A stretch of DNA of 20,715 nt. Origin: a virus. A program made the position numbers and the translations under genes. The stretch spans positions 1-20,715 of the IMG/VR virus record IMGVR_UViG_3300008267_010629, one strand, 5' to 3'. A model generated the notes under the pieces. It was given only the letters and a program-made list of their open reading frames with translations, was not told where the DNA came from and did not search any database. Shown piece by piece: positions 828-16,672 of the stretch (its first letter is position 1; every line of letters starts with the position of its first letter).

Positions 828-1565
828 TTAAATTGTTGAAACTCCAGATTTTTGAACTACTATTGTTGTACACTTTTGTGCAAAGTCTATTGCTTGGTCT
901 ATATTTTTTGTTCTAATATATTCTACAACTAACCCTGCTAAAAATGTATCTCCAGCTCCTGAAACATCTTTTACAGGTACTTCTTGAGTAGGATAATTTT
1001 TACCTTGGTAATTACATCCATGTTTACCTGTTGTGATTATTGTTTTGTTTTTAATTATTTTGTCTTTAGAAAGAATATCTAGATTTTTTTCATATTCATG
1101 ATAATTAATTTTAATAAATAATATATCATGAGCCCAATTACCTAATATTTTTTTAGTATCTAAAAAAGTAATAGGATGTGACTTAGAAATAAATTCTATA
1201 TCTTCTTCGGTTAAAAATCCTTTACAATAATCACTAATTACTACAGCATCATATTCATCAAAATTAGTATTATATAGTATATCAAGATTTATTTTTTCAC
1301 ATTTATCGTTTTCATCTACTCTTAAAAGCAAATGATTATATTTTGAACAAACATATCTAATCTTTTTTATTTCTGTTGTATTGGTAATAAATTCTACTTG
1401 GTGTCCTAAAGCCTCAATATTTCTAACTACATTACCTGCCATACCAGGAGTAGATACTTCTTTAAGTGGATTTATGATAGGTATAGGGGCTTCAGGAGCT
1501 AATCTGTTTACTTTACCATAACGAAATATATCTAAACAATTATCTCCTATAACTAATATTTTCAT
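828..1565 (-). CDS. PfkB-family kinase, HldA/HldE N-domain-like (putative heptose-phosphate kinase)
   Basis: A ribokinase/PfkB-fold sugar kinase that most resembles the N-terminal domain of HldE (RfaE), which phosphorylates D-glycero-D-manno-heptose 7-phosphate at C1. Visible marks are the N-terminal VIGDNCLD strand (5-12), the HldE-like segment RLAPEAPIPI (21-30), GMAGNVVRNI (41-50) and the nucleotide/anion-hole motif DVSGAGDTF (200-208), with probable catalytic base Asp206. At 245 residues it is clearly shorter than the usual domain of about 310. The segment after VEFITN (57-62), where HldE carries a regulatory/lid stretch, seems to lack about 30-40 residues before LLLRVDEND (79-87). It starts 3 bases after the GMD-like gene. 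A matching HldE C-domain-like nucleotidyltransferase lies 13 kb away at 14923-15324. Heptose specificity is inferred; another sugar phosphate is possible. Confidence 0.75.
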   Translation of the reverse strand: MKILVIGDNCLDIFRYGKVNRLAPEAPIPIINPLKEVSTPGMAGNVVRNIEALGHQVEFITNTTEIKKIRYVCSKYNHLLLRVDENDKCEKINLDILYNTNFDEYDAVVISDYCKGFLTEEDIEFISKSHPITFLDTKKILGNWAHDILFIKINYHEYEKNLDILSKDKIIKNKTIITTGKHGCNYQGKNYPTQEVPVKDVSGAGDTFLAGLVVEYIRTKNIDQAIDFAQKCTTIVVQKSGVSTI

Positions 1566-1568
1566 TTT

Positions 1569-2579
1569 TTATCTTTTTAAAAATTTACGCCCTGATTTTA
1601 CTTTATTCCTCCAGTATTCTAATAAATCATCCATTGTTTGTTCAAATGTATATTCTGGTTTCCATCCTGTATGATTTTGAAATTTAGTAGTATCTGGTAT
1701 TTGTAAATCTGCGTCAATTGGTCTTAAACGCTCAGGGTCTATTACTATTTCAATATTAGGTATTGTTGATTTACTTACTAAATAATTAAGCATATCTGCT
1801 ATTTTACAAGTATAAGTACCACCTATATTGTAATATTCACCTGATGTTGGGTTAATTGTTACTAGCATATAATATGCTTTAACAGCGTCTCTAACATCAG
1901 CATATGTTCTGAGTGATTCAAGATTACCAACATATATTTTTGGTTCTTGTAATCCAGCTTCAATCATTGCTATTTGTTTAGCAAATGTTGATTCTGAAAA
2001 TACATCACCCCTCCTAGGACCAGTATGAGTAAACATACGAGTGGTCATAATTTTCATTCCATATGCTTCAGCATAATAACGACCAACTAAATCAGTTCCT
2101 ACTTTAGATATAGCATATGGTGATGCTGGATGGAATGTACATTCTTCATTTATTGGTAGTTTTTCTTTTGGTACTCTACCAAATACTTCACTTGAAGCAC
2201 ATACGTGAATTATAGCATTTTTATATTCTGATCGTCTAAGTGCTTCTAATAAATTGGTTGTTCCTAGAATATTAGTTTGAAGTGTTTCAATTGGTGAATC
2301 AAAACTAGTTTGTGGGTATGATTGTGCTGCTAGATGAAATACGTAATTTGGTTTTGATTTATCTACTGCTACTAATAATGATGCTAAATCATTTAAATCA
2401 CCATATATTAATTCAATACGTTCTTTCTTATTTATTTCCTCTGATAAATGCTCAATATTTTCTAATGAATCATTCCAGCGGGCTAAACCGTACACTTTCC
2501 AATCAGTATTAGCTAGTAAATAATCAGCTAAGTGTGATCCTACCATTCCTGTAATTCCTGTGATTAATACTTTATTCAT
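1569..2579 (-). CDS. GDP-mannose 4,6-dehydratase-like SDR (catalytic residues intact)
   Basis: An extended short-chain dehydrogenase of the GMD group, which turns GDP-mannose (or GDP-heptose in close relatives) into the 4-keto-6-deoxy sugar using bound NAD(P). The nucleotide loop TGITGMVG is at 7-14, the Asp/Asn-rich strand YGDLND at 59-64 and HLAAQS at 82-87. The catalytic set is complete: Ser129-Ser130-Glu131 (ASSEVFG) and the Tyr155-xxx-Lys159 pair (SPYAISK). The FTHTGPRRGDVF segment (183-194) is typical of this family. At 336 residues the length is normal. The gene lies 2 bases after the GDP-fucose-synthase-like gene and 3 bases before the kinase. It is the best candidate for the committed 4,6-dehydration step of the left module. 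Whether the substrate is GDP-mannose or GDP-heptose (as in Campylobacter DdahA-type enzymes) cannot be told. Confidence 0.85.
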   Translation of the reverse strand: MNKVLITGITGMVGSHLADYLLANTDWKVYGLARWNDSLENIEHLSEEINKKERIELIYGDLNDLASLLVAVDKSKPNYVFHLAAQSYPQTSFDSPIETLQTNILGTTNLLEALRRSEYKNAIIHVCASSEVFGRVPKEKLPINEECTFHPASPYAISKVGTDLVGRYYAEAYGMKIMTTRMFTHTGPRRGDVFSESTFAKQIAMIEAGLQEPKIYVGNLESLRTYADVRDAVKAYYMLVTINPTSGEYYNIGGTYTCKIADMLNYLVSKSTIPNIEIVIDPERLRPIDADLQIPDTTKFQNHTGWKPEYTFEQTMDDLLEYWRNKVKSGRKFLKR

Positions 2580-2581
2580 TT

Positions 2582-3538
2582 TTAGATTTTATTTTTAATA
2601 TACCATTCAACTGTTTCTTTAATTCCTTCTTCAAATGTATAGGTAGGTTTAAACCCTAATTCATTATTTAATCTCTCTGTACTTACCATTCTAAATGGGA
2701 TAGTTGTTGGTTTGGTTTCATCATATATTACTTCAGGGGTTTTTCCTGTTGCTTTTAAAATAGCATTTACAATATCTCCAACAGTTACTGTAACTCCTGC
2801 TCCTACATTATAAGGACGCATTGATTCTCCTTTTTCTAATACTAATAAAGCGGCTTTAACAACATCTTTTACATATAAGAAATCTCTAACAACATCTGGC
2901 GTACCCCAAACAATAAATGGATTTTCATTATCTAATACTCTTTTAATTAATGCTGGGACTACGTGACAAGTCTTAGGATCAAAATTGTCATATGGACCAT
3001 ATATTGCAGTACCTCTAGTTAAGGCAATTTCCATTCCTGAAAATTTAGAGACATGTTCCATTAATTTTTCTCTATATCTTCTCATCCATCCATATCCATA
3101 ATATGATTTATATGGTTCTTCATCCCAAAATTCTTCTTCTTTAATAGGATATCTTCTATCGGGATAACCTGTTGAACTATTTAAATCTAAAAATCTTTTT
3201 ACTCCTGATTTATATGAGGCTTCTAGTACATTTCCTAATACTAGTATATTTTGTAAAGATATTTGTATGTCTGTAGGTACTGTAGAAGGATGAGCAATAG
3301 CTCCTCCAGAATGAACAACGTAATCTGCTCCTTCAATTAATTTAAAACAATCTTCTAATTTAGTTAAATCAATATTTTCTAATACCTCAAGTCTTTCATC
3401 TTGAATTTGAAGTAATTTATTATGTGTATGAGTTTTTACCTTAGCTCCTCGCTCAAGTAATTCTAAAAGATAGTGAGATCCTATAAATCCAGATCCTCCC
3501 GTAACAACTACCTTTTTGTCTTTAAAGAAATTTTCCAT
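2582..3538 (-). CDS. GDP-fucose synthase-like SDR with YxxxR in place of YxxxK
   Basis: An NAD(P)-dependent epimerase/reductase-type SDR of 318 residues, closest in pattern to GDP-4-keto-6-deoxymannose 3,5-epimerase/4-reductase (Fcl/WcaG). The dinucleotide loop TGGSGFIG is at 13-20 and the Ser-Ser pair at 121-122 (LNSST). The Fcl-like stretch YGPYDNFDPKTCHVVPALIK (180-199) includes His192 at the place of the Fcl catalytic His. Two departures are visible. The active-site Tyr149 is followed four residues later by Arg153 (YGWMR) rather than Lys, and Fcl's Cys in SSCIYP is Thr123. The function may therefore be a reduction or epimerisation on another 4-keto sugar rather than GDP-fucose synthesis. 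Its ATG at 3538 lies 17 bases inside the end of the preceding gene, implying coupled translation. Family is clear; the reaction is uncertain. Confidence 0.8.
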   Translation of the reverse strand: MENFFKDKKVVVTGGSGFIGSHYLLELLERGAKVKTHTHNKLLQIQDERLEVLENIDLTKLEDCFKLIEGADYVVHSGGAIAHPSTVPTDIQISLQNILVLGNVLEASYKSGVKRFLDLNSSTGYPDRRYPIKEEEFWDEEPYKSYYGYGWMRRYREKLMEHVSKFSGMEIALTRGTAIYGPYDNFDPKTCHVVPALIKRVLDNENPFIVWGTPDVVRDFLYVKDVVKAALLVLEKGESMRPYNVGAGVTVTVGDIVNAILKATGKTPEVIYDETKPTTIPFRMVSTERLNNELGFKPTYTFEEGIKETVEWYIKNKI

Positions 3539-4220
3539 AAAATTGTTGTAAATTATTAAATGATGAATTATTATATTTTTTATTTAATTTAAATATAGGA
3601 TTAGGAAAATCCAAATTTGTTTTATATATATGTTCTCCTAATAATGTAGATGAGTTGAAATAATTTTTTACTTCTTTTAATTTAAGTGAACTATTAGAAA
3701 CAAAATCAATTATTCCATTACATGAAGTATAATCTTCACTAATAAAAAATTCTAATAAATTTTCCATTAAAATATAATTAAACTCGGATTCTCCAGATAA
3801 GCTTATACTCGATATATTATCTTTTAATTTAGTAATATGATTAGGCCTCATAGTATTACCTAAAATCATAGAACATCTTAAAATTAGATCATTATTGTTT
3901 AATAGGGATTCTGAGAATTTTTTAAATAAGGAATATATTGTAGGATTTTCTTGATAAATATCTATTGATGAAATATAAATAAATTTTTTATAATGAAGAG
4001 ATTGTAATCGCTGAGTAAAGAAAATATTATCATCTAAATATTTTTTATAATCTATTACAGTGTTTTCTCTATTAAAAGCACAATGAATTATAGTATCGTA
4101 ATAATTATTTTTTATTAAATTAAAATTATTTCTATCTACTCCAATAACATTAGGTAAATTTTCATAAAGATATTTTCCTAATCCACTTCCTATTCCAGTA
4201 ACTAAGAATTGATGCTCCAT
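3522..4220 (-). CDS. Divergent short NAD(P)-binding SDR (RmlD/epimerase-like)
   Basis: A 232-residue Rossmann-fold protein, much shorter than its neighbours. It opens with LVTGIGSGLGKYL (6-18), a glycine-rich nucleotide loop. It retains Ser84-Ser85 in IYISSIDIY (81-89) and a Tyr96-xxx-Lys100 pair (YSLFK), so the catalytic core of an extended SDR is recognisable. The C-terminal substrate-binding half is abbreviated and poorly conserved, and the sequence is very rich in Asn, Ile and Lys. A sugar-nucleotide reductase role (RmlD-like 4-reductase) is a reasonable inference from its position between two Fcl-like genes. The start ATG at 4220 is one base after the stop of the preceding SDR gene; the 3' end overlaps the next gene by 17 bases. 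An inactive or regulatory paralogue cannot be excluded. Confidence 0.65.
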   Translation of the reverse strand: MEHQFLVTGIGSGLGKYLYENLPNVIGVDRNNFNLIKNNYYDTIIHCAFNRENTVIDYKKYLDDNIFFTQRLQSLHYKKFIYISSIDIYQENPTIYSLFKKFSESLLNNNDLILRCSMILGNTMRPNHITKLKDNISSISLSGESEFNYILMENLLEFFISEDYTSCNGIIDFVSNSSLKLKEVKNYFNSSTLLGEHIYKTNLDFPNPIFKLNKKYNNSSFNNLQQFYGKFL

Positions 4221-4221
4221 A

Positions 4222-5193
4222 TTAGTGATTTACAAATGCATTATATCGTTTATCAAGTATTTCTTTATTATTTAAAAACCATTCAGTAGTACGTTTAATA
4301 CCTTCTTCCAATGATACTGAAATATTAAATCCATAAGATTTAGCTCTAGTCATATCAAATAGACGAATTTTATCTCCTGCTGGTTTATCTGTTAACCATT
4401 TAATTTCAAGTGGTTTACCTGCATATTTAACAACCATTTCAACTACTTCTTTAATTGAATAACCTTCACCTGATCCTAGATTAATAGGTTCAGTAATCTG
4501 ATTTTCAACAGCAAATATCATTCCTAAAGCAACATCATCAGCATGAATGAAATCTCTAATAGTTGAACCATCACCCCATACTTCTAACACATCGTTTTCT
4601 TGTGCCTTCCTGATTAATGAAGGAACTACCATTGCATTCGCTGGGTTGAAATTATCGTATGCTCCATAAACATTAGCTGGTCTTACAATTGATATATTTT
4701 TAGTACCATATTGAATACCATAGGCTTCCGCTTGAAGTTCACCTATACGCTTAGCCCATCCAGCAAATCTATCATTTGGAGACGGCATTGTACTCCAAAC
4801 TGTATCTTCAACAAATACATCTGCTGGAGCATAAACCCCAACTGAACTAGTATATAAGTACCATTTAACCTTTGCTCTATGAGCTGCTTCCATCATATTA
4901 GTATTGAATTGGAGCATCGGCACCATAAAGTCTACGGGCTGTTCAGCACACATTTTAGGTGAACCTTTAATACCTACTAGATTAAAAATATAATCTTTAC
5001 CGTTACATATAGATTCGCACTGATCAAAATATCTAAGATCAACTTTAATATATTCTACTCCTTCAGGTAGATCTGAGGGTTCGGTTAGATCGGCTACTGT
5101 AATTTGTGCTCCTTTTTCTAATAGAAATTTAACTAGCGAGCGGCCAATCATTCCTCCTCCACCAGTAACTAAAACTTTTTGATTTTTAAACAT
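4222..5193 (-). CDS. Fcl/epimerase-like SDR lacking the catalytic Tyr and His
   Basis: A 323-residue extended SDR with loop VTGGGGMIG (9-17), Asp35 at the end of beta-2 (VAD), Thr-Ser-Ser at 115-117 and the Fcl-like segment RPANVYGAYDNFNPANAMVV (171-190). It is therefore a sugar-nucleotide epimerase/reductase homologue. The usual Tyr of YxxxK is replaced: the aligned pentapeptide is Ala144-Gly-Trp-Ala-Lys148 (FAGWAK). The position of the Fcl catalytic His is Met188 (NAMVVP versus SHVIP). I believe FAGWAKRxGELQAEAY occurs in other bacterial homologues, so this may mark a distinct subfamily. It overlaps the end of the 3-dehydratase fragment by 8 bases (ATGTTTAA). NAD-dependent sugar-nucleotide chemistry is likely; the exact reaction is unknown. 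Confidence 0.8.
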   Translation of the reverse strand: MFKNQKVLVTGGGGMIGRSLVKFLLEKGAQITVADLTEPSDLPEGVEYIKVDLRYFDQCESICNGKDYIFNLVGIKGSPKMCAEQPVDFMVPMLQFNTNMMEAAHRAKVKWYLYTSSVGVYAPADVFVEDTVWSTMPSPNDRFAGWAKRIGELQAEAYGIQYGTKNISIVRPANVYGAYDNFNPANAMVVPSLIRKAQENDVLEVWGDGSTIRDFIHADDVALGMIFAVENQITEPINLGSGEGYSIKEVVEMVVKYAGKPLEIKWLTDKPAGDKIRLFDMTRAKSYGFNISVSLEEGIKRTTEWFLNNKEILDKRYNAFVNH

Positions 5194-5728
5194 TATTTAT
5201 TTTTTTACAGACATTAATAATTTGCTCTCTAGTTAATTCAGGATGATTACCTACATAAAGTGCATTATCGTGAATATAATCAGAATGAGCTAAAGCTCCA
5301 ACTATTTTGTATGGGAATTTTTTAAGATAGGGTTGTCTAGCCTGATTACCACCCCCTGCTGTTCCTAATCTATATTCAACACCTTCATCTTCTAGTATTT
5401 GGCATACATCTTTTAATTTATCACGAGTAGCTCCTTGCATCATTAAAGGTAAAGCAAAGTTACTATTTCCTGTTGTATTAAATCCTGTAATAAACTTACT
5501 ACCGTCTAAATTAGATAACCAAATATCTAGATTTTCAATACGGCGTTGAATATTATAATCTAAACGTTTCATCTGCTCTATTCCTAATACAGCATTTAAT
5601 TCTGTACTTCTCATATTAAATCCAGCTACAGCAAATGTAAATAATGGATTTAGATCAGGATTTGTTAGTTTATAATGTTCTTGTAATTCAGGAGATGCTT
5701 CTCTAGTCATACTATAATTTAGGATCAT
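5186..5728 (-). CDS. C-terminal part of a split ColD/RfbH-type sugar 3-dehydratase (DegT fold)
   Basis: This frame carries the second half of the DegT/AHBA-fold enzyme whose first half is at 5712-6329. Homologous sequence starts at MTREAS (ATG 5710-5708) and includes the family segment FNMRSTELNAVLGIEQMKRL, followed by the small C-terminal domain ending KKINNV. An ATG at 5728-5726 (MILNYSMTREAS) could allow separate translation but has no ribosome-binding site; sequence further upstream in this frame is out-of-frame noise. Relative to intact family members, about ten residues just before MTREAS seem absent, and the frame changes by +1 there. A deletion is therefore more likely than a simple miscall. 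It overlaps the next SDR start by 8 bases. The gene is either truly broken, split, or affected by an assembly error. Confidence 0.7.
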   Translation of the reverse strand: MILNYSMTREASPELQEHYKLTNPDLNPLFTFAVAGFNMRSTELNAVLGIEQMKRLDYNIQRRIENLDIWLSNLDGSKFITGFNTTGNSNFALPLMMQGATRDKLKDVCQILEDEGVEYRLGTAGGGNQARQPYLKKFPYKIVGALAHSDYIHDNALYVGNHPELTREQIINVCKKINNV

Positions 5729-6329
5729 TAACACATACTGTTCCACCTTCGATAGTGGTAATATGATGTCCAAAGTAAAATGAGAATAATGAAATATCAC
5801 CAATCGATCCTACTTTTTTATCTCCAAATTTAGCACCATGTGCTTCACAACAATCTTCAATTAATATAATATTTTTTTCTTTACATAATTGAACTAATTC
5901 ATCTGTAATACCATTAAATCCTAAAGCATGTACCATTACAATTGCTTTAGTATTTGGTGTGATTGTATTTTTAATATTTTCTGCTGTAATACAGAAGTTT
6001 TTCATATCCACATCTACAAATACTGGTGTCATTCCTAGCTGAGTAACAGATGATATATCAGATACCCATCCGATAGGAGGAACAATTACTTCTCCAACTC
6101 CAACTAATTCTTTTACCATTGCTATTGAAATATAATTAGCAGATGCTCCTGAATTAACCATCACGCTGTATTTCATTCCTAACCAATCTGACCATATTTG
6201 TTCAAATTCTTTTACTTTTTCACCATTAGTAAAACGTTTTCCATTTAGACAGAAGTCGGCCAATACTTCTCTATCACACTGAGTGATATTATCATTTATT
6301 AACGGCCATGTAAAATTATTTTGTGCCAT
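5712..6329 (-). CDS. N-terminal part of a ColD/RfbH-type PLP-dependent sugar 3-dehydratase, frame-broken
   Basis: The large PLP-binding domain of a DegT/DnrJ/EryC1/StrS-fold enzyme. Counting from the ATG at 6329, it has the phosphate-binding SGAS (61-64), the pyridine-N-binding Asp159 in IEDCCEAHGA (157-166) and the cofactor segment SLFSFYFGHHITTIEGG (180-196). Aminotransferases of this fold have Lys at the first His (His188). His there is the hallmark of 3-dehydratases such as ColD (GDP-4-keto-6-deoxymannose 3-dehydratase) and RfbH/E1 (CDP-sugar). The expected product is therefore a 4-keto-3,6-dideoxy sugar, not an amino sugar. The frame stops at TAG 5714-5712 after NDPKL; the rest of the enzyme continues in another frame at 5186-5728. 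I chose ATG 6329 (MAQNNFTWP) over an in-frame GTG at 6338. It overlaps the E1-beta gene by 14 bases. Confidence 0.8.
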   Translation of the reverse strand: MAQNNFTWPLINDNITQCDREVLADFCLNGKRFTNGEKVKEFEQIWSDWLGMKYSVMVNSGASANYISIAMVKELVGVGEVIVPPIGWVSDISSVTQLGMTPVFVDVDMKNFCITAENIKNTITPNTKAIVMVHALGFNGITDELVQLCKEKNIILIEDCCEAHGAKFGDKKVGSIGDISLFSFYFGHHITTIEGGTVCVNDPKL

Positions 6330-6846
6330 AGTATTCACTGTGTTCTATTATTAATGTTGATTTTTCACTTTCATATGCTGTTTTAAAAGCATTAAATATC
6401 TGTTCTGGTTCTGTTAACTCTATTACTTCTACTTCAGTAAGCATTTTTCTCATTGCTTCTGTATGATTTTGAGTATGTTGAGGACCAGCACTAAATGGTA
6501 CTTTAGAACCTACTGCTACTCGAATAATAACTTTAGGTTTCATATCTCCTTTAGACATATCTTGCATTTTATCTAAATGATTAACTAACTGATTTAAAGA
6601 TAAAATGAAAAAATCAAATCGAGGATAACATGTAATAGGTACCCAACCTTCTAAAGCCATACCTGTTGACATACCTAATTGTGTTTCTTCAAGTACTGGT
6701 AGTTCAATACGTTTGTCTTGAGGGACATTAGCCATTGTATTTGAAATAGCATGTCCACTAAACCCAATTGCTTGTCCTAAAAATACTGTGTTTGGTTTGG
6801 TTCCTAACCATTCCATTGATCGTTTTAATTCGTCGAAATATTTCAT
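6316..6846 (-). CDS. Minimal E1-beta-like TPP enzyme subunit (transketolase pyrimidine-binding domain)
   Basis: A 176-residue protein corresponding to the pyrimidine-binding domain of 2-oxo-acid dehydrogenase E1 beta or transketolase. The segment ELPVLEETQLGMSTGMALEG (48-67) carries the Glu (probably Glu53) that activates the thiamine ring. FDFFILSLNQLVNHLDKMQ (77-95) and VPFSAGPQHTQ (115-125) match the E1-beta pattern. Ordinary E1 beta is about 325 residues; here the transketolase C-terminal domain is missing, so this is a stripped-down subunit. It follows the alpha-like gene by 9 bases, and the two must form one active site. It overlaps the 3-dehydratase start by 14 bases, a strong hint that the TPP enzyme acts on a related sugar intermediate. 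A lipoyl-dependent dehydrogenase role is unlikely because no E2/E3 is nearby. Confidence 0.85.
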   Translation of the reverse strand: MKYFDELKRSMEWLGTKPNTVFLGQAIGFSGHAISNTMANVPQDKRIELPVLEETQLGMSTGMALEGWVPITCYPRFDFFILSLNQLVNHLDKMQDMSKGDMKPKVIIRVAVGSKVPFSAGPQHTQNHTEAMRKMLTEVEVIELTEPEQIFNAFKTAYESEKSTLIIEHSEYYGTK

Positions 6847-6855
6847 GTTTTAAAT

Positions 6856-7482
6856 TTAAAAGTTAACCCATTTACCTGTTCCGTGATGTGGATAGGACAT
6901 TTTATATGAATAATAAATTACATTCTCAGGTGCTTCCATTCTTTTACCCCAAGCAATATCTGTAGGAGTATGAACACTTAAATTATTATCTTCAACTACA
7001 AATTGAAGTGGTAAATTAAAGTTTTGAGAATACTTATATGCTTCGTGAAATACTCCGGTTTCCATTGTCATATCTCCTATAAAACACCAAACACGACGTG
7101 GTGAATTTTTGCGTTTAAGACCCATTGCTGTTCCTAAAGCAATAGGAATAATACCACCTACAATAGATGAAGCATAAAAGTTAGGGTTAATATTGTTAGT
7201 ACCCATACTCCTACCTTCACTTATTTCTGTAAATAGTTTTTCACTATCTACACCATGGAGTAAAGCATGATAGTGATTTCTCCAAGCGGAAAATATCCAA
7301 TCACCTGGGTGGATATATTGAAATAGCTCAATTAAGTGTTCTTCATTGTTTTTAGAAAGATGTATAGGTCCCTTAATTTGACCTGCTTCGTATGCTTCTT
7401 TTACTCTGTCTTCAAAAGAAATAAGTTCTTCAGGAGTAATTTTTATATCTCTAACTTTAGTGTAATGTGAAGGTATTTTCAT
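6856..7482 (-). CDS. Minimal E1-alpha-like TPP enzyme subunit (ThDP diphosphate-binding domain)
   Basis: A 208-residue homologue of the E1 alpha subunit. It shows the ThDP/Mg signature GDM at 136-138 followed 28 residues later by Asn166-Asn167 (FVVEDNN), the SAWRNHYHALLHG segment (65-77) that in E1 alpha surrounds the active site, and NFYASSIVGGIIPIALGTA (101-119). At 208 residues against the usual 320-370 it has lost the phosphorylation-loop and C-terminal regions; it ends naturally with HHGTGKWVNF. It is 9 bases upstream of the beta-like gene, forming a two-gene enzyme. The leader is the longest non-coding stretch in the window (39 bases). Ketol transfer or decarboxylative two-carbon addition is inferred from family and neighbours. 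E1-like rather than classical transketolase identity is favoured by the VVEDNN and WRNHYH motifs. Confidence 0.85.
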   Translation of the reverse strand: MKIPSHYTKVRDIKITPEELISFEDRVKEAYEAGQIKGPIHLSKNNEEHLIELFQYIHPGDWIFSAWRNHYHALLHGVDSEKLFTEISEGRSMGTNNINPNFYASSIVGGIIPIALGTAMGLKRKNSPRRVWCFIGDMTMETGVFHEAYKYSQNFNLPLQFVVEDNNLSVHTPTDIAWGKRMEAPENVIYYSYKMSYPHHGTGKWVNF

Positions 7483-7521: not shown

Positions 7522-8409
7522 TTAGATTGACTTAATTTTTATAGTTGTTGTTGGTATATTTAAAGATTCATCAATAACATAACAATGAGTTTTTCCTATA
7601 GAATTAATACTCTCAGCTGTATGATAAGTATAGACATCTGGATCGAATCCTTTATCATTACTGTGGGAATATTCGCTATTAATCATAATAGCCATATCTA
7701 TTGATAATCTAGGTTTAGCATTTTCTCTAATTAAAGTTCTATGCAAACAAGCATGATCCATTATAGCTAACGTTTGTTTATTTAAAGTTCCTAAATACTT
7801 AAAACTTTCATAGCGAGTATTTCCCTCATCGAAACTTTCAGCTTTATCCAAATAATTATCATGTACATTAATAGGCTCATTAAATTCTACTGTATTGTTA
7901 TTGACATCTCCTAATACCCCAATCAAAAATTGACAATCTCCCATATGTCCTACCCAAGCATCTGAATGGTATTTACTTGTGTAATAAGGTCGAGATTTAA
8001 TTTCATCTGATTCTACTGATGGTTTATATCTAAGATTAGGGATAACTGTTTGATTAATATGAGAATATAAACCTAAATCATTTAATATATTATTTAAACT
8101 GCTTTGTATTTTAGTAAAGTGAGACGCAATTTCATTTTTTGGTTTAATAATCCCATTAGGAGTTTTATTTGGTAGATTCATAATTAAATCATTATTATCT
8201 TCTAAGAATGAGTCTGACCATATAAATTCTTTATTGTATGCTAAAGATAATGTCTTTATTAGATATTCTTTAACAGATACAATTAATTCATTGTATAAAT
8301 CTTTATTTATAGTATAAAAAAGTACACTACCTGGGGTGGAAGCTTCTTGTAAATTAGCTTTAGGGAAATTTGTATAAACTTTTTTTCTAGTTTCAATAAT
8401 AGTATTCAT
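7522..8409 (-). CDS. Putative Fe(II)/2-oxoglutarate-dependent oxygenase (phytanoyl-CoA dioxygenase-like)
   Basis: A 295-residue protein with the double-stranded beta-helix iron triad spaced as in Fe(II)/2OG oxygenases. His148-Ser-Asp150 (YHSDAWVG) provides the first two ligands, His223 (DHACLHRT) the distal one and Arg234 (KPRLSIDMAIM) the 2-oxoglutarate anchor. Strands such as CQFLIGVLGDV (159-169) and LAIMDHACLHR (214-224) fit the core. Such enzymes hydroxylate or otherwise oxidise C-H bonds using O2 and 2-oxoglutarate. In a glycan operon the plausible target is a sugar or nucleotide-sugar, but a phosphonate or amino-acid substituent is also possible. The start ATG at 8409 lies 5 bases after the methyltransferase stop. 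Assignment rests on the metal-binding pattern, not on overall similarity I can recall. Confidence 0.65.
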   Translation of the reverse strand: MNTIIETRKKVYTNFPKANLQEASTPGSVLFYTINKDLYNELIVSVKEYLIKTLSLAYNKEFIWSDSFLEDNNDLIMNLPNKTPNGIIKPKNEIASHFTKIQSSLNNILNDLGLYSHINQTVIPNLRYKPSVESDEIKSRPYYTSKYHSDAWVGHMGDCQFLIGVLGDVNNNTVEFNEPINVHDNYLDKAESFDEGNTRYESFKYLGTLNKQTLAIMDHACLHRTLIRENAKPRLSIDMAIMINSEYSHSNDKGFDPDVYTYHTAESINSIGKTHCYVIDESLNIPTTTIKIKSI

Positions 8410-14573: not shown

Positions 14574-14945
14574 TTATTTTTGACTATCTCCTTTCCAAAC
14601 ACGATATGAGTCGGAATCAGAGTGGGTTGTTGATACCTCAAATATAGTACCGTCTGTTATTGCTTCTAATTGATGTGGTTGTCCTGGTCTTTGTCTTACT
14701 ATATCTCCAACTTTAAGTTTTTGTTCAACAACTTCGGCTGTTTCAGTATCAATCCATCTGTAAATGAATTCTCCTTTATCAACATACCAAGTTTCATCTT
14801 TAATCATATGGTAATGCATACTAAATTTACAGCCTTTTTTAAATATTAAAAGCTTACCACAATACATTTCATTATTTTCTATAATTAATTCTTCACCCCA
14901 ACCCTTAGGTACTTTACATCCTTCACAAACTATTGGTTTTTCCAT
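14574..14945 (-). CDS. Cupin-domain protein (phosphomannose-isomerase-II-like)
   Basis: A 123-residue single-domain cupin. The metal-binding set is complete: His44, His46 (SMHYH), Glu51 (DETWYV) and His91 (RPGQPHQLEA). The opening KGWGEELIIENN (14-25) and the ending FEVSTTHSDSDSYRVW (102-117) match cupins found next to sugar-phosphate nucleotidyltransferases and in type II mannose-6-phosphate isomerases. A sugar-phosphate isomerase or epimerase role is therefore plausible, but a ligand-binding role cannot be excluded. The start ATG lies 23 bases inside the end of the nucleotidyltransferase gene, suggesting coupled translation and a shared pathway, for example supply of the sugar phosphate that the nucleotidyltransferase activates. 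No other Met before residue 27 could serve as start. Confidence 0.75.
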   Translation of the reverse strand: MEKPIVCEGCKVPKGWGEELIIENNEMYCGKLLIFKKGCKFSMHYHMIKDETWYVDKGEFIYRWIDTETAEVVEQKLKVGDIVRQRPGQPHQLEAITDGTIFEVSTTHSDSDSYRVWKGDSQK

Positions 14946-15324
14946 AATTTAAAATATTAGTTGTTGATTTATCTTTTATTCTATCGAAATATATAACTTC
15001 TTTTATATATTCTACTCCTATAATTGGTTTACCTTTATAGTCACTTCCTATAACCATATAATCTGGTTGGTATTGTTTTATAATATTAATCAATTGTTCA
15101 TCTGTGTCAAATACATCAACACTATTAATATATTTTATAGAGCATAAAAATTCAGCTCTATCTGACAATAAATTAAATGGTCTATTTTCACCTTTAAATT
15201 TTTTAATTCTTTTATCAGTATCAATTCCTACTTTAACACTTCCTAATGTACTAGCGTATTCAAGTAATCTTATATGCCCTATATGCAGAACATCAAATGA
15301 ACCATTTACCCATACTTTTACCAT
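14923..15324 (-). CDS. HldE C-domain-like sugar-phosphate nucleotidyltransferase (RfaE/cytidylyltransferase family)
   Basis: A 133-residue member of the cytidylyltransferase-like superfamily. It shows VNGSFDVLHIGHIRLLEYAS (6-25) with the nucleotide-binding HIGH box at 14-17, VGIDTDKRIKKFKGENRPF (32-50), RAEFL (56-60), DYMVIGSDYKGK (88-99) and the late KSTTNIL (119-125). This pattern and spacing match the C-terminal domain of HldE (D-glycero-beta-D-manno-heptose-1-phosphate adenylyltransferase) better than glycerol-3-phosphate cytidylyltransferase, which has a different C-terminal motif. I chose the ATG at 15324 (MVKVWVNG), which overlaps the preceding stop as ATGGTAA; an in-frame ATG four codons earlier is less compact. 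Together with the PfkB kinase at 828-1565 it would reconstitute a split HldE. GmhA and GmhB would have to come from the host or lie elsewhere. Confidence 0.8.
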   Translation of the reverse strand: MVKVWVNGSFDVLHIGHIRLLEYASTLGSVKVGIDTDKRIKKFKGENRPFNLLSDRAEFLCSIKYINSVDVFDTDEQLINIIKQYQPDYMVIGSDYKGKPIIGVEYIKEVIYFDRIKDKSTTNILNYGKTNSL

Positions 15325-15722
15325 GATATTTCCCAATCTTTAAATTCTGCTGCTAAACAATCGATTTTATAATCTTTTCTACCTCCCATTATCTCTTGGA
15401 TTTGGTTTTTAGCAGTATTACGAATACCATTCAATCCATGTGTTAATGCTAATGCATTAGGACCAGATTTACCACTACGAACATTTGACTCATTATGCCA
15501 TATATGTAAATTCATTTGAGATAATACTATAATTGCTCTAATAGTTTCAGCAGTAATTGGTTCTTTACTTTCATCCAAGTGTAATTGAATGTCATGTACT
15601 ATATCTGCTATTTCTGTTGAGTATTCATTTTTATGTTCTGTAATGAATACTTCTTTTAATTGAGTTATACTTAGTCTATCAATTAATTCACTTAGTGTTG
15701 GTAGATATTTTCTTTCTTTCAT
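15318..15722 (-). CDS. Conserved helical hypothetical protein (marine-phage type)
   Basis: A 134-residue, predicted all-alpha protein: LPTLSELIDRLSITQLKEVF (7-26), EIADIVHDIQLHL, ETIRAIIVLSQMNLHIWHNE and ALALTHGLNGIRNTAKNQI are amphipathic segments, ending CLAAEFKDWEISW. I recall proteins with the LxELIDRLxIxQLKEVFI start and LTHxLNGIRNxAKN core as recurrent, function-unknown genes in marine T4-like phages. No enzymatic motif is visible. It sits inside the glycan block, with a 4-base ATGA overlap to the GMD-like gene upstream and 7 bases shared with the nucleotidyltransferase start. It supports a viral origin for the window more than any other gene here, but that relies on recollection rather than a search. 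Confidence 0.7.
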   Translation of the reverse strand: MKERKYLPTLSELIDRLSITQLKEVFITEHKNEYSTEIADIVHDIQLHLDESKEPITAETIRAIIVLSQMNLHIWHNESNVRSGKSGPNALALTHGLNGIRNTAKNQIQEIMGGRKDYKIDCLAAEFKDWEISW

Positions 15723-16672
15723 AATATGTTATTATAATATTTAATAATCTCATCCATTGTATCTTCAAAATTATATTTAATTTTCCATCCTAGTTTTTTT
15801 AATTTAGATGAATCTCCTTTTAGTTTAGGTACTTCTGATAGATTAGATTCTGTTTTAATACATTGTTTATAATCTAAGTTAAGTTTGGTACAAGTATATT
15901 CACAAATATATTTTATACTATTTAAAGTACCTGTTGATATAATATAATTATCTGATTTTGGTTGTTGTAAAGTTAACCACATAGCTTCTATATAATCTTC
16001 TGCATTACCTATATCTAAATAAACATTTAAATTAGGTATATAATAATTTGGTATAATTCCTTTTTTAATATCTATTATATGTTTAATTACATTATTAGTT
16101 ACTCCTAGTAATGTTTTTGATTTTGGTGATTCATGATTATATAATATTCCATTACTAACATATAAATTATTATTTTCTCTGTAATTATTACTTATATTAT
16201 AAGCAAATAATTTTGAAGAAGCATATGGACTGATTGGGTGAAAAGAGGTTGTTTCTCTCTGAAATCCATCATTATCTATTGAATTTCCAAACATTGCTGA
16301 TGAGCCTGCTTGGAATATTTTAGAATTAGGAGAATAGTTTTTAATATTTTCTAAAAGTATTAAAGTACCTATTAGAGTAACATTAAAGGTATTTAAAGGA
16401 TCTCCATAACTTAATCTAATATTACTTTGTGAGGCTAGATTATATATTTCATCAAAATGATTTATTTCTAATAGAAAACGTATTAATTCATTATTTAATA
16501 AATCTCCATATACTAGTTGAAGATTTTTATTATTAATAATACTATCTAAATTTGTTGTATTAGATTTTTCTCTTAATAAACCCCATACCTTATATCCTTT
16601 ATTTAGCAAAAATTCTGCTAATAAAGAACCATCTTGTCCTGATATTCCTGTTATAAGAGCTTTTTTAGTCAA
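15719..16672 (-). CDS. GDP-mannose 4,6-dehydratase-like SDR with catalytic Glu replaced by Ala
   Basis: A 317-residue SDR of the GMD group: nucleotide loop TGISGQDGSLLAEFLL (8-23), YGDLLNN (55-61), NLASQS (78-83), SPYASSK (148-154) with Tyr150/Lys154, NHESPKSK (179-186) and the GMD-typical LDIGNAEDYIEAMWL (219-233). The catalytic triad segment reads Ser124-Ser125-Ala126-Met-Phe-Gly where GMDs have SSE[ML][FY]G. The general acid/base Glu is therefore gone (GCA codon, one base from GAA), and dehydration should be impaired. Epimerase-type SDRs such as GalE have SSA here, so another sugar-nucleotide reaction is possible. The start is TTG at 16672, chosen because AGGAGG lies 8 bases upstream and the usual MxKKALITG N-terminus begins there. 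It overlaps the GT2 gene by 8 bases. Confidence 0.8.
   Translation of the reverse strand: MTKKALITGISGQDGSLLAEFLLNKGYKVWGLLREKSNTTNLDSIINNKNLQLVYGDLLNNELIRFLLEINHFDEIYNLASQSNIRLSYGDPLNTFNVTLIGTLILLENIKNYSPNSKIFQAGSSAMFGNSIDNDGFQRETTSFHPISPYASSKLFAYNISNNYRENNNLYVSNGILYNHESPKSKTLLGVTNNVIKHIIDIKKGIIPNYYIPNLNVYLDIGNAEDYIEAMWLTLQQPKSDNYIISTGTLNSIKYICEYTCTKLNLDYKQCIKTESNLSEVPKLKGDSSKLKKLGWKIKYNFEDTMDEIIKYYNNIL

Follow-up and report, generated by a model that had tools for sequence, protein, structure and literature searches.

We analyzed a 20,715-base stretch of viral DNA, IMG/VR virus record IMGVR_UViG_3300008267_010629 (the window), whose genes lie almost wholly on the minus strand. Two small adjacent genes in the window encode proteins resembling the alpha and beta subunits of a thiamine diphosphate (ThDP)-dependent E1 enzyme (the mini E1 pair), and they are followed by a gene for a DegT-fold enzyme, genes for short-chain dehydrogenases/reductases (SDRs) and a GMD-type 4,6-dehydratase gene (Table 1). 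Nine bases (6847-6855) separate alpha from beta, and the 3' end of beta overlaps by 14 bases the DegT-fold gene, which starts with an ATG at 6329 and encodes His at the Lys site. An earlier note on this DNA had described the same layout and had proposed that the stripped-down E1 pair takes the place of the yersiniose enzyme YerE beside a 3-dehydratase.

Anatomy of the mini E1 pair and the DegT-fold enzyme

In a Pfam search, alpha matched the first half of E1_dh (E 7.6e-16, positions 8-170 of the 300-position profile) and contained the GDM...NN motif, while beta matched Transket_pyr (E 3e-10) and no other domain. The search found no Transketolase_C domain in beta and no Transketolase_N domain in alpha, which matched E1_dh instead and whose best affinity was not to transketolase. 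It also found no YerE-like architecture in the pair, that is, no single chain with the N, M and C domains of TPP_enzyme. No NCBIfam family scored above its cut-off for alpha, beta or the DegT-fold protein, and the PHROG family that matched the pair, phrog_34187, is annotated as having unknown function.

When the pair was aligned with a full E1 pair, alpha was found to have retained the active-site residues His70, Asp137, Asn166 and the His199 loop, and beta, compared with a full E1 pair and AcoB, retained Glu53 and His124. Glu53 was invariant among the beta relatives. The C-terminal part of alpha and the entire C-terminal domain of beta were missing. The median length was 202 amino acids over 199 alpha matches and 178 amino acids over 197 beta matches, and the small size is therefore the norm of the family, not a truncation in the window. 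The AlphaFold2 model of alpha (predicted local distance difference test score [pLDDT] 92.6) had human pyruvate dehydrogenase (PDH) E1-alpha 3exe_A as its top PDB match, and that of beta (pLDDT 90.6) had 1qs0_B, 1um9_B and 1ni4_B, with split transketolase and DXS lower in the match list. The fold matches of both subunits were to the E1 of PDH and of branched-chain 2-oxo acid dehydrogenase (BCKDH).

The N-terminal part of the DegT-fold protein aligned best to ColD (2gms, E 4.8e-35) and had a His in place of the catalytic Lys of the fold. The first His of the segment FGHHITTIEGG aligned with a residue that is His in 2gms and Asn in the ColD chain 3b8x, a position which we take to be that of the catalytic ColD His188. 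A profile of 12 intact relatives scored 316 bits against ColD, 236 against an RfbH-type dehydrase and 191 against perosamine synthase. The RfbH-type Fe-S cysteine segment (CYC...C; compare the RfbH-like protein of locus L087) was not found in the DegT alignment (A3), in which the only invariant Cys lies in EDxCE, a motif common to ColD. The predicted function is that of a ColD-type pyridoxamine phosphate (PMP)-dependent 3-dehydratase. A standalone RfbH system was rejected because ColD was the best match and the RfbH-type cysteines were absent.

Compared with five relatives having one intact open reading frame (ORF) of ~396 amino acids, the window gene lacks 29 nt. The deletion shifts the frame, creates a TAG and removes a conserved R-S-H-G block (alignment A3 columns 216-219). 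Intact copies of ~396 amino acids were common in relatives.

Linkage to the dehydratase and exchange of the ThDP enzyme

The two scans of viral sequences yielded 21 and 80 loci. The same alpha-beta pair was present in about two dozen near relatives, most of which also kept the gene order alpha-beta-DegT-SDR-(small SDR-like)-SDR-GMD-kinase, so that the alpha-beta arrangement is not due to chance. Outside viruses, the pair turned up when bacterial and archaeal genomes were scanned, namely in Pelagibacteraceae, SAR86/SAR116, Nitrospira, Betaproteobacteria, Verrucomicrobia, a Prochlorococcus single cell and archaeal metagenome-assembled genomes (MAGs). The route, which the earlier note had called probably phage-borne, is not specific to phages, since Nitrospira, Burkholderiales, Verrucomicrobia, Pelagibacteraceae and archaeal MAGs have it too. 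Its prevalence was low and patchy: 6/148 genomes in the phylum of a Nitrospira genome, 5/300 in the order of a Piscinibacter genome and 2/52 in the family of a Pelagibacteraceae genome. A plasmid search returned ordinary E1-alpha relatives only.

Beta directly followed alpha in 159/161 loci. A His-type DegT gene lay in the flank of 113/150 distinct mini-alpha loci from viruses, bacteria and archaeal MAGs (in 78 of them within 700 nt), the locus counts being inflated by related sequences, and the DegT homologues in mini-E1 loci had His in 147/159 cases and Lys in 8. The five Burkholderiales genomes carrying the pair, found among 300 genomes drawn evenly from one order and chosen regardless of DegT, all had kinase, alpha, beta and DegT together (5/5). 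The pair was located among deoxysugar or sugar-cluster genes throughout, and no E2 or E3 gene was found near it in any locus except the positive control, the AcoABC locus L105.

In a second lineage, whose alpha is ~45% identical, a DegT gene with HH nearly always followed the pair, and frequent companions were a B12-binding radical S-adenosylmethionine (SAM) protein, a GHMP kinase, an HddC-like nucleotidyltransferase, GmhA and SDRs. The B12-binding radical SAM protein (~510 amino acids) was a constant part of the type-B cassettes (for example L097:3849-5390, L229:331-1845 and many others). Its best weak matches were HpnJ/BchE/PhpK, and also AprD4.

To approach the linkage from the DegT side, viral contigs were scanned for a DNA pattern encoding the HH motif, without regard to ThDP genes. 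The matches fell into two contexts, namely the colitose layout, gmd-SDR-DegT with no ThDP enzyme, and a cassette of radical SAM, ThDP enzyme, kinase, DegT and SDR. The DegT proteins of the module formed a clade of 53 rows (SH-aLRT branch support 98), separate from the ColD-like ones. A ThDP enzyme lay within 6 kb in 35/36 module-clade DegT loci with enough flank versus 2/42 ColD-like loci (Fisher p 1e-18), and L213, one of the two ColD-like exceptions, seems to be a truncated copy of the radical SAM-ThDP cassette. Colitose synthesis was rejected for the module since ColD-like loci lack ThDP enzymes. A close mini-alpha match was present in 10/50 viral records found by the motif, so not every DegT-His gene has a mini pair. 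In L204, an apparent exception, the mini alpha lies near the other end of its 326-kb contig; in L222 it lies elsewhere on the contig, and L212 is cut at the contig end. The association of the pair with the 3-dehydratase exceeds chance by a wide margin, and the 113/150 count stands against a pair that usually occurs without a 3-dehydratase, the finding that the earlier note had named as contrary to its proposal.

The cassette of radical SAM, ThDP enzyme, sugar kinase, DegT-His and SDR held four kinds of ThDP enzyme in one slot: the mini E1 pair (L196, L206, L208, L225, L229, L233, L257), a full-length E1 pair with Transketolase_C (L199, L223, L227, L254), a split transketolase (L209, L217, L243, L262) and a TPP synthase with three TPP_enzyme domains (L198, L241). 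L227 and L241 were 99.5% identical in the SDR, 95.4% in DegT, 90.0% in the kinase, 97.4% in the radical SAM protein and 98.8% in a helicase, and inside the slot, where L227 has a full E1 pair and L241 a TPP synthase, they had nothing in common. The DegT proteins of L243 (split transketolase) and L198 (TPP synthase) were 93.5% identical, and L257 (mini pair) and L243 displayed the same exchange pattern at lower identity.

Among solved structures, the L241 synthase scored highest with 8rph (318 bits, versus 270 for acetolactate synthase). This structure is that of JanthE, a YerE-like enzyme coupling 2-oxo acids to ketones (PMC12188165). YerE-like enzymes, alpha-KADH2 pairs and transketolases are the ketone-accepting ThDP groups known or proposed to branch sugars (PMC12247030). 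That YerE-like enzymes, E1 pairs and transketolases interchange beside one dehydratase is the strongest evidence that the mini pair would be a keto-sugar carboligase.

Two further features of the exchange cassettes were observed. A class-I aminotransferase gene (L241:2739-3902) lies beside the YerE-like synthase; its product could make the 2-oxo acid donor, which hints that accessory genes travel with each ThDP type. The full-length E1-beta proteins have Asp at the catalytic Glu site (LSMADVAGG or LSMSDVAGG; L199:5363-6274, L227:6528-7424, L254:4708-5619).

Other genes of the window

Table 1. Genes of the module and associated genes in the window
Feature	Coordinates	Strand	Basis or remark
HldE domain-I-like sugar-phosphate kinase (PfkB)	828-1565	-	TIGR02198 135 bits, below cut-off
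GMD-type NDP-sugar 4,6-dehydratase	1569-2579	-	Pfam GDP_Man_Dehyd E 4.5e-79; S-S-E and YxxxK motifs
Second Fcl-like SDR	2582-3538	-	Family searches; neighborhood
SDR-like, function unassigned, kept in module	3522-4220	-	Weak PHROG 540 match; neighborhood
SDR, Fcl-like	4222-5193	-	Best NCBIfam match GDP-fucose synthase, below cut-off; 8-base overlap with DegT gene
DegT C-terminal part	5186-5711 (ORF 5186-5803)	-	Other frame; Pfam DegT profile 215-359
DegT N-terminal part	5712-6329 (ORF 5712-6338)	-	ColD-type, HH at Lys site; ends at TAG
Mini E1-beta	6316-6846	-	176 amino acids; pyrimidine-binding domain alone; Pfam Transket_pyr
Mini E1-alpha	6856-7482	-	208 amino acids; ThDP/Mg-binding subunit; Pfam E1_dh partial match
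HSDAW-motif protein immediately upstream of alpha	7522-8409	-	Fe/2-oxoglutarate oxygenase-like by inspection
HldE domain-II-like sugar-1-phosphate nucleotidyltransferase	14923-15336	-	TIGR02199 94 bits, below cut-off

The Fcl-like SDR next to the DegT gene was conserved in that position in relatives. The Tyr of the usual YxxxK motif is replaced in this protein, almost all of 50 relatives showing xAGWAK, and in the second Fcl-like SDR R stands in place of K (YGWMR), so the atypical catalytic sites of both proteins have been preserved by evolution. The GMD-type nucleoside diphosphate (NDP)-sugar dehydratase scored 189 bits against the NCBIfam gmd family, below the cut-off, with its catalytic motifs conserved. 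A second GMD-like protein at 15719-16672 (minus strand) has GSSAMFG where active dehydratases show S/T-S-E; its catalytic Glu is seemingly lost, and it may be an epimerase or inactive. The nucleotidyltransferase is possibly the partner of the HldE-like kinase. Pfam gave no match for the HSDAW-motif protein, an oxygenase-like remote relative of which adjoins the ThDP gene in some exchange cassettes (for example L227:5626-6531).

Proposed pathway, its alternatives and known systems

The gene anatomy, the retained catalytic residues, the loss of the E1-beta C-terminal domain, the linkage, the exchange in the slot and the lack of E2 and E3 genes are direct observations. As read from the sequences, the module is likely a branched-chain deoxysugar route in which the mini E1 pair ligates a ThDP-bound acyl unit onto a 4-keto-3-deoxy sugar. 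The GMD-type enzyme would form an NDP-4-keto-6-deoxy sugar, and the ColD-type PMP enzyme, with His for Lys, would remove the 3-hydroxyl. The mini E1 pair would then decarboxylate a 2-oxo acid on ThDP and, as it has no E2 partner, pass the carbanion on to the 4-keto-3-deoxy sugar at its C4 ketone. The product would be a tertiary alcohol that carries a short acyl branch. The adjacent SDRs would reduce or epimerize the branched product before its transfer to a glycan.

The sequence of reactions, the donor, the branching at C4, the length of the added chain and the identity of the sugar are inferences. The acyl unit is probably a C2 unit from pyruvate, which is the most likely donor because of the analogy with the alpha-KADH2 pairs (PMC12247030, PMC4802897), and the acceptor sugar is probably GDP linked. 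With the HldE-like genes of the window and the HddA-, HddC- and GmhA-like genes in relatives, heptose and hexose acceptors are about equally likely, nearly all of these heptose-type matches being below the family cut-offs. Given these genes, the sugar may be a heptose instead of the 3,6-dideoxyhexose product expected in the earlier note.

The same heptose-type genes, together with the split transketolase that can occupy the ThDP slot, would also suit a transketolase-like pair that supplies sedoheptulose-7-phosphate or another precursor to the heptose genes and leaves the nucleotide sugar untouched. We consider this quite unlikely, since the slot also accepts an acetolactate-synthase/YerE-like enzyme, whose family decarboxylates 2-oxo acids and carries out no ketol transfer between sugars, since the affinity of the pair is to PDH/BCKDH E1 and not to transketolase, and since the DegT-ThDP link would be left unexplained. 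A plain transketolase for heptose precursors was set aside because a YerE-like enzyme fills the same slot. The E1 fold and the catalytic residues of the pair would also suit an ordinary E1 of a 2-oxo acid dehydrogenase that uses the E2 and E3 of the host and lies near sugar genes by chance, but this is very improbable: the pair is in sugar clusters throughout, no locus bar the AcoABC control has E2 or E3, and the E1-beta C-terminal domain, by which E2 is bound in known complexes such as 1w85, is missing. A normal PDH or acetoin dehydrogenase was set aside for lack of E2/E3 and of the C-terminal domain. The branching itself could differ from that of yersiniose if the ThDP ligase used a keto group other than C4, acted before the 3-dehydratase, or added a unit that is longer or of the hydroxyacyl type. 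In favor of this, C3 and C4 both occur as branching positions among known alpha-KADH2 pairs (PMC12247030), loci without DegT exist, and accessory genes vary with the ThDP type, as with the aminotransferase beside the L241 synthase. Such a variant is unlikely in view of the tight alpha-beta-DegT coupling in most loci, which favors the dehydratase product as the acceptor.

Several results weigh against the proposed pathway or limit its support. About one-quarter of the mini-E1 loci lack a His-type DegT within reach; some of these are merely cut short, and L044, L106-L108, L115 and the cyanophages S-SM2 and P-TIM68 truly have other neighbors (Zn-dependent alcohol dehydrogenase, FabG, gmd), so that the pair can act without 3-deoxygenation. 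A 4,6-dehydratase was not clearly in view in many bacterial and type-B cassettes. The correlation between alpha and DegT distances (r 0.77; 0.81 for viruses only; best of 500 permutations, 0.10) speaks for the linkage but partly reflects common descent, and the 35/36 count is partly circular for the mini pair because the clade was delimited with DegT queries from mini-E1 loci; it is not circular for the other three ThDP types.

The dehydratase gene of the window itself is broken as assembled, and this copy of the pathway would therefore need an intact dehydratase elsewhere or be lost. The 29-nt loss may be a real mutation or an assembly fault, the sequence data fitting either. That the module in this virus is decaying and does nothing is possible but doubtful: the frameshift and the loss of conserved residues speak for it, but alpha, beta, the SDRs and gmd are all open and conserved, and a 29-nt gap in a metagenome contig may reflect an assembly fault or a minority variant. 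The earlier proposal of an E1 pair replacing YerE beside a 3-dehydratase gained strong comparative support from the 113/150 loci and the exchange in the slot, and the note as a whole is partly supported.

The module is widespread, common to viruses and bacteria, and apparently undescribed. We found no published description of it from phages or bacteria in the open-access literature, to which the search was confined; a pelagimyophage paper reports radical SAM gene cassettes and lipopolysaccharide genes in a variable region, without this pathway (PMC7029224). We see about an even chance that viruses and bacteria share a modular pathway in which a fixed 3-deoxy-4-keto-sugar line is combined with an interchangeable ThDP carboligase, placing different branches on the same surface sugar among close phages and hosts, perhaps to escape co-infecting phages, with the mini pair among the smallest natural ketone-accepting ThDP ligases. 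If the proposed route is correct, branched-chain surface sugars would have a third route of synthesis, and one widespread among phages and little-studied bacteria. The acyl unit would then be joined to a ketone by a natural enzyme pair of very small size (~380 residues in total), a type of reaction sought for the preparation of chiral tertiary alcohols. No alpha-KADH2 structures exist (PMC12247030). The swapping of unrelated ThDP enzymes in a near-identical cassette makes the origin of surface sugar diversity in cells and phages directly testable.

Among known proteins, the phrog_34187 protein of S-SM2 and P-TIM68, annotated as "transketolase central region-containing protein," is a homologous alpha-beta fusion of ~402 amino acids. 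It differs from the module in having no DegT nearby; its neighbors are a Zn-dependent alcohol dehydrogenase, a FabG-like protein, a kinase and heptose genes. Fused genes of this cyanophage type, next to a Zn-dependent alcohol dehydrogenase gene and without DegT, were seen at L103:12001-13209, L104:12049-13194 and L313:5711-6913, and L106 and L108 each contain a mini E1 pair and a split transketolase in one locus, beside a FabG-like SDR. ColD, the GDP-4-keto-6-deoxymannose 3-dehydratase of colitose synthesis, is the best solved relative of the module DegT and shares its catalytic His, but the module DegT forms a separate clade tied to ThDP enzymes, whereas the neighbors of viral ColD-like copies are gmd and an Fcl-like SDR, with no ThDP enzyme among them.

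The actinobacterial alpha-KADH2 pairs (AviB1/B2, Plm8/Plm9 = Pau11/Pau12, KbDH-alpha/beta) extend a keto sugar by a C2 unit taken from pyruvate (PMC12247030, PMC4802897, PMC4753412), and the E1-like pairs of octose pathways mentioned in the earlier note are indeed documented (PMC4802897, PMC12247030). Like the module, they are two-gene E1-like ThDP pairs coupled to deoxysugar genes without E2/E3. The module differs in that its subunits are minimal and lack Transketolase_C, that its partner is a predicted ColD-type PMP 3-dehydratase, and that it lies in surface-glycan clusters of viruses and Gram-negative bacteria, whereas the alpha-KADH2 pairs lie in antibiotic clusters. With yersiniose synthesis, the module would share the logic of 4,6-dehydration, 3-deoxygenation, ThDP carboligation and reduction. 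YerE is a single-chain enzyme of the decarboxylase family acting on CDP-4-keto-3,6-dideoxyglucose, whereas in the module an E1 pair stands in its place, the sugar is probably GDP linked, and the dehydratase is of the ColD type and lacks the RfbH-type Fe-S cysteines. A YerE-like enzyme can also take the slot of the pair in this cassette.

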